A DNA stretch of 36,842 nt, from NCBI GenBank assembly GCA_903824045.1, contig CAIJVD010000008.1, forward strand, positions 1-36,842, given 5' to 3'. The notes beneath the pieces are model-generated. The model saw only the letters and a program-made list of their open reading frames with translations. It did not search any database and was not told the origin of the DNA. Made by a program: the position numbers and the translations under genes. This document shows, in pieces, positions 32,114 through 36,691 of the stretch (position 1 is the first letter of the stretch; each line of letters begins with the position of its first letter). Source of the DNA: an uncultured Chlorobiaceae bacterium (GTDB lineage: Bacteria > Bacteroidota > Chlorobiia > Chlorobiales > Chlorobiaceae).

Positions 32114-33329
32114 CCGACAGGTCGTCCCGATCCCTGAATCCTATCAAGTAGAGGATAGCGTCAAGGCCGAGGGTTGAAATTGCCTGCTTTGCGCTCTCCC
32201 TGACAATCGGTTTCGCCCTGAAAGCGATGCCGAGCCCCGCTTTTCCCAGCATCGGCAGATCGTTTGCCCCATCCCCCACCGCAATGGTCTGCTCAAGGCG
32301 TATGTTCTCCTTTCCGGCAATCAGCTCCAGCAGTTCCGCCTTCCGCTGACCGTCAACAACACGGCCGAGAACCTTTCCCGTCAGCTTTCCCTCAATGATC
32401 TCAAGGGTATTGGCGTACACGTAATCGATATTGAGCTTCTTCTGCAGGTAGTGGCCGAAATAGGTGAACCCGCCCGAAATGATCGCGGTCTTGAATCCGA
32501 GATTGTGCAGGTTGTGAAAGAGCGTCTCCGCCCCCTCGGTCAGCTGCAAGCGCGCGGCAATTGTCTCAAGCACACGCTCGTCCAGCCCCTCAAGGAGCGC
32601 AACCCTTCGTTGCAGGCTGCCGGTAAAGTCGATCTCACCCCGCATCGCCTGCTCCGTAATTGCCGAAACCTCCTCGCCCACCCCCGCTTCAATCGCCAGC
32701 TCATCGATCACCTCCGACGTGATCAGCGTTGAATCCATATCAAATACCACAAGGCGCCGGTTGCGCCGGAAGATATTGTCCTCCTGAAATGCGATGTCGA
32801 TGCCCAGGGAGTCGGTGATGGCCAGCATCTGCTCGCGGAAGAGGTTCTCGTTATGAAGCGTGCCCCTTATCGAAAACTCCACACAGGCCTTGCTGTGCAG
32901 GCGGTCACTCTTTTCAAGCGGAATTCGCCCCGAAAGCCGGTTGATGGTATCAATATTCAGGTTATGCGACGCAATAATCGACGACACCCGCTCCAGATGC
33001 TCCGCCGTAATCCGCCTCGCCAGCAGCGAAAGCAGATGGCGCGCCTTGCCCTGCTCATGTACCCAGTCGTTGTACTCACTATCGGTAACCGGCGTAAAGG
33101 TAATCTGTATGCCGAGCGTATGGGCGCAAAAGAGCAGATCCTTCAGCACCGGCGACGAAGCCGACTCCTTCGGCACCTCCACCAGCATCCCCAGCGAAAG
33201 GTGGTTATGAATAACCGCCTGCCCGATATCGAGCACCGGCACTTTGTAACCGGAGAGGATCGAGGTGATTTTCGACGTCAGACCCGGCTTGTCCTGGCCT
33301 GTAATATTGATCAAGAGAAGCTCGCTCAT
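32061..33329 (-). CDS. serB: Phosphoserine phosphatase with N-terminal ACT domains
   Basis: SerB removes phosphate from phosphoserine, the last step of serine synthesis. The 422-residue protein has an N-terminal ACT-like regulatory region ([21 protein letters not shown]; a second ACT-like unit about 95-180) and a HAD domain with the nucleophile motif DMDST (Asp197, Asp199), IISGGFTYF and [10 protein letters not shown]. The start at 33329 is kept in the partial copy downstream. The last 53 bp overlap the convergent second ferredoxin gene, so the two transcripts are antisense at their ends. Confidence 0.95.
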
Positions 33330-33339
33330 TGTGGCTTGG
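33181..33339. repeat. Direct repeat, copy 1 (serB 5' end)
   Basis: 159 bp matching 34294-34452 with 8 mismatches and no gaps (about 95% identity). It covers the first ~50 codons of serB and 10 bp of its leader. A further flanking match, 33428-33461, corresponds to 34595-34628 (32 of 34 identical). Confidence 0.95.
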
Positions 33340-34250: not shown

Positions 34251-34442
34251 TTACGTAAGTGAAATAACTCGGAAGGAGGTTTGTTTACGTTCAACCAGCA
34301 TGTCGAGCGAGAGGTGGTTATGGATAACCGCCTGGCCGATGTCGAGCACCGGCACTTTGTAACCGGAGAGGATCGAGGTGATTTTCGACGTCAGACCCGG
34401 CTTGTCCTGGCCTGTAATATTGATCAAGAGAAACTCGCTCAT
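34251..34442 (-). pseudogene. Truncated serB copy (first ACT segment only)
   Basis: A 63-codon frame begins like SerB ([16 protein letters not shown]) and stays homologous for about 50 residues, then runs into unrelated sequence (RKQTSFRVISLT) and stops. It lacks the phosphatase domain. One conserved-position change is visible (Gly to Asp in LSLDMLVE). It is the coding part of the second direct repeat. Confidence 0.88.
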
Positions 34443-34452
34443 TGTGGCTTGG
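34294..34452. repeat. Direct repeat, copy 2 (serB 5' end)
   Basis: Partner of 33181-33339, same orientation and length. Apart from one change near the start codon, the mismatches are in the distal 50 bp; the rest is identical. The region 34453-34780 after it holds no recognised gene, only the inverted repeat at 34536 and the flanking repeat at 34595-34628. Confidence 0.95.
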
Positions 34453-34864: not shown

Positions 34865-35881
34865 ATGGGAGCTGATTCACGCACACTTTTACAGTCGGGT
34901 GTAAATCCTTTGACACTGCAACACAGCCCGAAATTACTGGAATTATTTCGGGAGGCTATGCGTGTTCGTCACTACAGCAACAGGACAGAAGAGACCTATT
35001 GCGCTTGGGTCAAGCGTTATGTTCATTTTCACAACATGAGGCATCCAAAAGAGATGGGTGAGCTGGAGATCAATGCTTTTTTAACCCATCTTGCCGTAGC
35101 GGAAAAGGTTAGCGCATCAACTCAGAATCAGGCATTGAGTGCACTGTTATTTCTCTACCGGAACGTGATTGGCAAAGAAGTCGGTGACCTTGGACACGTC
35201 ATCCGTGCAAGAAAGCCGATTCATTTGCCCGTGGTTTTAACACGTGAAGAGGTAAAGGCTCTTCTTGCTCAGCTTACAGGTGACAAGTGGTTAATGGCGT
35301 CACTCATGTATGGCGCTGGATTGAGGCTGATGGAATGTCTTCGTTTGCGCGTCCAGGATATTGATTTCTCCCGTAATGAAATTTTGGTTCGTGATGGCAA
35401 GGGAGCAAAAGATCGGATAACCATGTTGCCTGAATCTTTGAAAAAGTATCTCGGCGACCATCTGAAAAATGTCAAGGAAATTCACGATAAAGATCTTGCT
35501 GATGGCTGGGGGCGGGTACTCTTGCCTGGCGCTTTGGACCGCAAGTATTCTAATGCACCTTCAGAGTGGCGATGGCAGTGGGTTTTTCCCCAGGAAAATC
35601 GGTGGGTGAACACCAAAACCGGCGAAGAGGGACGGCACCATATTGATGAGTCACTGATTCAAAAGGCTGTTAAAATGGCGGCTTTTCATGCACAATTGAT
35701 AAAACGGGCCACTTGCCATACATTTCGGCACTCTTTTGCAACTCATTTACTTGAGGCAGGGTATGATATTCGAACCATTCAGGAGCTAATGGGGCATAAG
35801 GATGTAAGCACCACGATGATTTATACGCATGTTTTAAACAAAGGTGGTCATGGCGTAAAAAGCCCGGTTGATGGCTTGTAA
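34865..35881 (+). CDS. intI: Integron integrase (tyrosine recombinase, IntI type)
   Basis: 338 residues. IntI recombines attI and attC sites to insert or release gene cassettes. The tyrosine-recombinase residues are present: Arg154 (GAGLRLME), the lysine region GKGAKDR, His285 and Arg288 ([12 protein letters not shown]), His311 ([11 protein letters not shown]) and nucleophile Tyr320. Between them lies the IntI-specific extra segment ([19 protein letters not shown], about 223-242), then RRHH-like GRHHID, which ordinary XerC/D lack. The C-terminus [13 protein letters not shown] is also IntI-like. I start at ATG 34865, with AAGGA 9 nt upstream and the promoter just before; GTG 34781 would lie ahead of the promoter. 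The gene points toward the cassette it precedes. Confidence 0.92.
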
Positions 35882-35882
35882 G

Positions 35883-36101
35883 CAACGTTGTTATGCCGAT
35901 CCGTATAAGACGCTAAAATAAAACTTAATACAATGGTTAAGTGCTTTTTATTAAAACGATTAACGGTATTTCGAGTGGTTTGTAATTTGCGTCTTATATG
36001 GGTTACTATTCAAAAATCTGCGGTTTAGGCGGATCAATCTAATTATTGTTATGCAGAAAGGAGTTTCTGATTTTTTTGGGATTAGATAGATCGGTCTAAA
36101 C
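35883..36101 (+). other. Putative attI region: two GTTATGC sites and nested inverted repeats
   Basis: Right after the intI stop is CAACGTTGTTATGC (35883-35896), close to the attC end CAACGTTATGC at 36681-36691. A second GTTATGC is at 36048-36054. Two large inverted repeats occupy the space: 35901-35913 with 35989-36001 (13 bp, one G-T) and 36023-36043 with 36081-36101 (18 of 21 pairs), the latter enclosing the second GTTATGC. Either the first GTTATGC is attI and a gene-less cassette follows, or the second is the junction. No gene is seen here. Confidence 0.5.
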
Positions 36102-36121
36102 AATGTTGAGGGCAAAAGAAA

Positions 36122-36568
36122 ATGATAAATAAACTTAATGGATGGCAAAGATTGTGGGTGCTATTAGCGTTCATTTCACTCATCGTTGTTGTGGTCTTCG
36201 TAGTGCAGGCGTTTCCTCAACCCAATAAAGTATTTCATAGCCCAAAGCTCATTCAACAAATTCCCACAGAGTCACGAGAACTTTTCGTTTTGGAGGATGA
36301 GCATGGGATGACACCAGTCGCAGACGTAGGCATTTGTGTTTATGCTTCTAACGGTATGATTTTGCCGTTTAGAGCAGGCACATCAGATGCACAAATAGAG
36401 AAGGCTCGAAATGAGTATGAGTTCGCGTTGGTCGCTGTTTCAAATGCCAACCGAACATCGTTAATCATCAAAAGCGCCATTCTATGGTTCGTGTTCTGTA
36501 TCGGCATTTATTTGTTGGGTTGGTCTATAGGCTGGATTCGTAAAGGCTTTTATAGCAGCAAGCTCTAA
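36122..36568 (+). CDS. Integron cassette gene: small two-helix membrane protein, function unknown
   Basis: 148 residues. A short N-terminus is followed by a hydrophobic segment (about 11-30, WVLLAFISLIVVVVFVVQAF), a soluble middle of about 85 residues (including TPVADVGICVYASNGM), and a second hydrophobic segment (about 117-137). The middle is thus probably outside the cytoplasm, with both ends inside. No known family was recognised. The stop codon TAA lies inside the start of the attC site, as in many cassettes, and the low GC content differs from the core genes upstream. The ATG at 36122 has no clear Shine-Dalgarno. Integron cassettes often encode such orphan proteins. Confidence 0.75.
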   Translation: MINKLNGWQRLWVLLAFISLIVVVVFVVQAFPQPNKVFHSPKLIQQIPTESRELFVLEDEHGMTPVADVGICVYASNGMILPFRAGTSDAQIEKARNEYEFALVAVSNANRTSLIIKSAILWFVFCIGIYLLGWSIGWIRKGFYSSKL

Positions 36569-36691
36569 CAAGTCGCTCAAGTACCGTTCGCTTCTGCTTA
36601 TTGGTGGTTTTTGTACTTGTTATTTGCGCATTTATTGCCAATTTTACGCGCAGAAAAAGTACAAAAGCCGCTGATTAGCTCAACGTTATGC
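36563..36691 (+). other. attC recombination site (59-base element) of the cassette
   Basis: About 129 bp between an R'' box (TCTAAC, 36564-36569, then AAGTCGCTCAAG) and an R' box (CGTTATGC, 36684-36691) preceded by TTAGCTCAA. The centre is an imperfect hairpin: TTTTGTACTT (36609-36618) with AAGTACAAAA (36657-36666), and TGCGC (36625-36629) with GCGCA (36648-36652). Layout and box order match attC sites; crossover would be between G36685 and T36686. Confidence 0.78.

Follow-up and report, generated by a model that had tools for sequence, protein, structure and literature searches.

A probable structured attI with two dyads, extended by a partial second attI, downstream of the integrase gene in a chromosomal reverse integron of Chlorobiaceae

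The window, i.e., the whole stretch of 36,842 nucleotides from an uncultured Chlorobiaceae bacterium that was analyzed, reaches the end of a contig of a Chlorobium-group MAG, for which Chlorobiaceae MAGs were the nearest named relatives. It contains close to its right end an intact integron integrase gene (intI), whose product scored 470 bits against TIGR02249, as compared with a curated cut-off of 265. This gene is transcribed towards the attI and the cassettes. Such a collinear layout is known from Treponema denticola, Chlorobium phaeobacteroides, and others, and the corresponding integrons have been called "unusual" or "reverse" (PMC3607928, PMC6557892, PMC7691350). In the reverse integrons that we examined, attC-like sites were found 3' of intI and never 5'. 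On the other side of intI, the window carries a 162-bp duplicate (34290-34451, 94%) of the start of serB (33178-33339), located between serB and intI. Since relatives have a full serB directly 5' of intI, this is the ancestral location of the integron, in which part of serB has been duplicated. A mobile unit with a boundary at position 34290 was ruled out because this edge is merely the end of the partial serB copy of the window. An apparently shared internal deletion of intI, extending from just 5' of the start codon to around codon 250, was observed in several genomes, at L031/L046, L032, L034, L030, and L037, where attI was kept. The features of the segment are the following.

34865 to 35881, plus strand: intI, intact integron integrase of 338 amino acids, with TIGR02249 and Pfam Phage_integrase matches
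35887 to 36048, plus strand: left part of the proposed attI (type A), up to the crossover; block kept to G36048 in relatives, followed by divergence
35891 to 35908, no strand: distal dyad D, TTATGCCGATCCGTATAA; the first GTTATGC (35890) forms its left arm
35901 to 35916 and 35986 to 36001: inverted repeat 1, 16 nt, 88% (given as 13 bp previously)
35980 to 36009, plus strand: candidate cassette promoter, TTGTAA, 18 nt, TACTAT
35994 to 36001, plus strand: single half-site H, TTATATGG; in inverted orientation to the right arm of D, with 54-55 nt to the crossover
36023 to 36043 and 36081 to 36101: inverted repeat 2, 21 nt, 18 matching
36025 to 36042, no strand: proximal dyad P, TTAGGCGGATCAATCTAA; ends 5 nt before the crossover, with the L box (ATCTAAT) as the right arm
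36048 to 36054, plus strand: R box GTTATGC, with the crossover between G36048 and T36049 at a sharp homology end
36049 to 36105, plus strand: partial second attI (proximal module, type B subtype), with a second crossover between 36105 and 36106
36106 to 36691, plus strand: probable first gene cassette, composed of an ORF (36122-36568) and a possible attC (36562-36691)

The preliminary description of this DNA had reported two copies of the heptamer GTTATGC, 158 bp apart, and two nested long inverted repeats. Both heptamers are present, at 35890-35896 and 36048-36054, and the window contains 8 copies against 2.6 expected, a number that none of 100 shuffles reached. The two inverted repeats exist as well, but they sit side by side and are not nested.

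The segment 35882-36121 was searched against 101 genomes (most of the relatives among them being from the genus). Matches were obtained in 53 genomes and ended mostly at one identical base. More than 50 distinct copies read AATCTAATTATTG up to this base and TT after it, or a close variant, and continued with differing DNA. In the copies from the Chlorobium genus, homology ended at the G^TT of the second GTTATGC, between positions 36048 and 36049, and a different cassette followed in nearly every copy. Among 61 unique copies, 246 pairs had a common left flank, 243 of which had nothing in common on the right, and only 5 pairs had a right flank that was common from the junction onward. The homology end at G^TT and the unrelated right flanks thus indicate that cassettes enter between 36048 and 36049, and the comparison with the intI-downstream regions of relatives, which had been put forward earlier as a check, places the crossover there on the basis of more than 50 copies. 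The cassette boundary coincides with a G^TTRRRY crossover, and an inverted L box (ATCTAAT) is located 5' of the R box, 4 nt before GTTATGC. Both heptamers had been regarded as core recombination sites, which holds for that at 36048, whereas the one at 35890 represents an accessory half-site; this position reads GTTTTTATGC in many copies and was never seen as a cassette boundary.

Left of the crossover, the motifs are more conserved than their surroundings, with 90-96% conservation in the Chlorobium-genus copies as compared with 70% in the spacer; the values were 90% for D (column conservation in 28 copies) and 92% for H. The order of dyad, half-site, dyad, 5 nt, and G^TT after intI was found in most of 37 integrons from about 15 phyla, the phylum names being taken from the titles of MAGs, whose taxonomy may include misbinned contigs. 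An example of a distal dyad from across the phyla is TTATGCGGATCCGCATAA, which is followed by a spacer, the half-site, and the proximal dyad. In most of the reverse integrons examined, the half-site TTATnnnG was located mostly 52-56 nt before the crossover. For the 37 integrons, distal dyads within 70 nt of the intI stop codon, on its 3' side, scored above dinucleotide shuffles (Fisher p 1e-15), about 8-10 of the 37 dyads being weak. The proximal dyad gave a p of 1e-13 in a test that is partly circular, since the crossovers at distant loci were picked by their similarity to this core, whereas the distal test is not circular. In an independent 450-bp background, a score of 8 was reached in 2 of 72 segments, as compared with most of the proximal dyads. 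Control segments within intI, in the mid-spacer, and in downstream DNA gave no dyad signal. A classic-orientation attI was also looked for at L117-L124, and no dyad site was found on either side. We found no description of the dyad-half-site-dyad architecture in the open-access literature.

The dyads have lengths of 17, 18, or 19, and D and P agreed in 15 of the 17 confident integrons (permutation p <1/20000). Since this length class changed at least five times on the IntI tree, D and P have changed together repeatedly, as expected if they are bound by one protein. These data suggest a common binding protein for the two dyads. IntI is the likely candidate, since P contributes, with its right arm, the L box of the crossover site. 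Between the dyads, an internal cassette promoter at 35980-36009 is possible, with 8 of 12 matches, which is under the scan threshold, and many copies carry TTGnAA-18-TATAAT at this position. It is unlikely that the dyads serve as operators, at which a separate regulator (e.g., of this promoter) would act, instead of integrase sites: a constant distance of 5 nt separates the right arm of P from the crossover, the half-sites resemble the R box, and the length class changes jointly in D and P, and these observations stand against the flanking of the candidate promoter by the dyads and the retention of dyads by solo copies in integrase-less genomes.

The single-strand folding that had been proposed as a check revealed a better fold for the plus strand of 35883-36105 than for any of 200 shuffles (z -3.9), and the minus strand gave a z of -2.9. 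No double-sided compensatory changes of weight were detected in the helices tested, which for the two repeats comprised the parts inside attI. As the helices have no compensatory support, the strong folding is best explained as a side effect of the repetition of protein sites. According to the comparative data, the repeats are copies of one half-site (TTAtnnnG) and not an extruded hairpin. In the 13-16 bp repeat, H pairs with the right arm of D, and in the 21-bp repeat, P pairs with the dyad of the second attI module. The latter repeat does enclose a GTTATGC, as stated in the preliminary description, but its composition is half attI and half second partial attI. We consider it very unlikely that the structure acts mainly as RNA, in the form of leader hairpins, a terminator, or an attenuator between intI and the array. 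Helix variation is almost entirely one-sided, and the large hairpin, which spans attI and a foreign module, is consequently absent in most relatives; the z score of the plus strand, the stems followed by T-runs in type B modules, and the 93% pairing of AUCCGC/GCGGAU would be compatible with such a role. A search for RNA families yielded chance microRNA matches only.

We reject, as the least likely reading, the earlier suggestion of a gene-less cassette. Such a cassette would extend over 35897-36048, with the attI crossover at 35890 and a divergent attC at its end. The inverted repeats between the two GTTATGC sites and the existence of ORF-less cassettes in reverse integrons (PMC6557892) could be cited for it, but the block 35887-36048 stays at the 3' end of intI in relatives while only the DNA past 36048 changes, position 35890 is not kept as GTTRRRY in many copies and belongs to an arm of a dyad found across phyla, and the block is fixed behind intI and shows no attC fold with paired R''/R' boxes.

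The mapped crossover and an architecture unlike that of attI1 thus bear out the view of an unusual structured attI that is not class 1-like. The class 1 attI1 (L, R, DR1, DR2) has in common with the present site an R box GTTRRRY, an L box 5' of it, and upstream accessory integrase sites; however, attI1 is a 65-bp site with DR1/DR2 and a divergent intI, whereas the site described here measures about 160 bp, has two dyads, of which the accessory distal one is about 157 bp away, and lies 3' of a collinear intI (PMC12901181). The reverse-integron attI of T. denticola shares with the present site a collinear intI, a location about 200 bp past this gene, L and R boxes, and a G^TT, and putative DR1/DR2 have been noted there (PMC4909258, PMC7691350). 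In contrast to that site, there are here two dyads and a fixed single half-site that recur across phyla, length co-variation of the dyads, and a second partial attI joined on.

This second module, 36049-36105, is 80-88% identical to the type B attI of L184-L188 and 74-80% identical to those of L050, L051, and L054, each of which has its own intI. Its dyad, TTAGATAGATCGGTCTAA (36082-36099), ends 5 nt before a G^TT, and the R box of the first attI is at the same time the half-site of the module, GTTATGCAG, which places the junction exactly at G^TT. As a partial attI that ends at G^TT and is joined at a crossover, the module corresponds to a Delta-attI; similar pieces have been found to be active in integrons of classes 1 and 2 (PMC12901181). 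Delta-attI cassettes of these integrons likewise carry a partial attI joined at the crossover within the array (PMC12901181), whereas the partial attI found here directly follows a full attI, is 5' of an ORF, and belongs to another attI subtype. Given this junction of the type B module, position 36106 is the probable start of the first gene cassette. Its ORF encodes 148 amino acids without a family match, and in genome G013 a homologue of the cassette start lacks the type B module and begins at the position that corresponds to 36110. The possible attC contains R''/R' boxes and an inner hairpin, and its outer stem is weak; good attC sites are present in the relatives L045 and L053, and simple attC folding filters proved too strict. 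The last 140 bp of the contig (36702-36842) are also present, with 97-100% identity, in two further contigs of this genome, C28 and C34, and the assembly therefore probably breaks at a repeated cassette. At L070, directly past the crossover, there are two copies of a 110-bp attC-like palindrome (GATGAACGGTCTGGCC...), with a distance of 1.4 kb between them.

Taken together, the segment is very probably the attI of a chromosomal reverse integron, with a six-half-site array presumably bound by IntI, cassette insertion at G36048^T36049, and a tandem attI. IntI, encoded just 5', would bind the two half-sites of D, the single half-site H, the two half-sites of P, and the R box, the right arm of P serving as the L box beside the R box. 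By analogy with DR1/DR2 of attI1, the distal accessory sites are probably engaged in a complex, looped or wrapped, which would favor attI x attC recombination, with cassettes being inserted at G36048^T36049. The partial attI of the other subtype, joined at the same G^TT, gives rise to the tandem attI and may have arrived by IntI recombination.

The attI sequence model produced 314 matches, some of them partial, in 53 of the 61 genus genomes, and an integrase above the TIGR02249 cut-off was found in only 12 of the 61. The genus thus holds more attI sites than integrases, a direct observation like the crossover position, the conserved architecture, and the co-variation of dyad lengths. The median number of matches was 8.5 in genomes with an integrase and 3 in those without (p 0.002), a difference confounded by relatedness and MAG incompleteness. 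Many species have one attI per genome at the ancestral locus beside serB. Many copies retain 3' fragments of intI of variable length, and where at least two attI lie within about 10 kb, they have the same direction in all of the clusters, about 13 in number (counted by eye). The same segment without any integron had been named as a finding that would speak against the interpretation; many copies are formally of this kind, yet intI remnants are usual there, so that these copies are relics or solo attI sites. In this respect they resemble CALIN elements (attC clusters without integrase), in which integron parts are likewise left without intI; the solo parts are, however, attI sites with intI remnants. 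At L006 (G000:C7, 2888-5914), far from intI, a degenerate attI is followed by a short attI that heads a protease-like gene with a good attC. The left edges of short solo attI were considered as crossovers at half-site H, which was unsupported since an orthologue reaches further left.

The data on solo attI sites fit both a decay of numerous former integrons and a movement by attI x attI recombination. As a tentative and rather doubtful proposal, the attI of this genus, and not only attC, could be a dispersed mobile landing pad that undergoes attI x attI excision and reinsertion, with solo attI sites served in trans. In that case, because of the collinear layout, stretches between attI sites, intI included, would be excised and reinserted like cassettes, leaving arrays of solo attI, each heading another gene and served by the few remaining integrases.

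Standard integron finders model attC and hardly attI. To our knowledge, attI has been defined experimentally in only a few integrons, and we would not expect standard finders to report solo attI sites with intI remnants. With a recognizable attI layout common to phyla, one can predict where reverse integrons insert cassettes and read their first cassettes correctly, and solo attI sites come to light by the hundreds. This layout also raises the question of whether a distal integrase dyad 3' of intI controls cassette capture.
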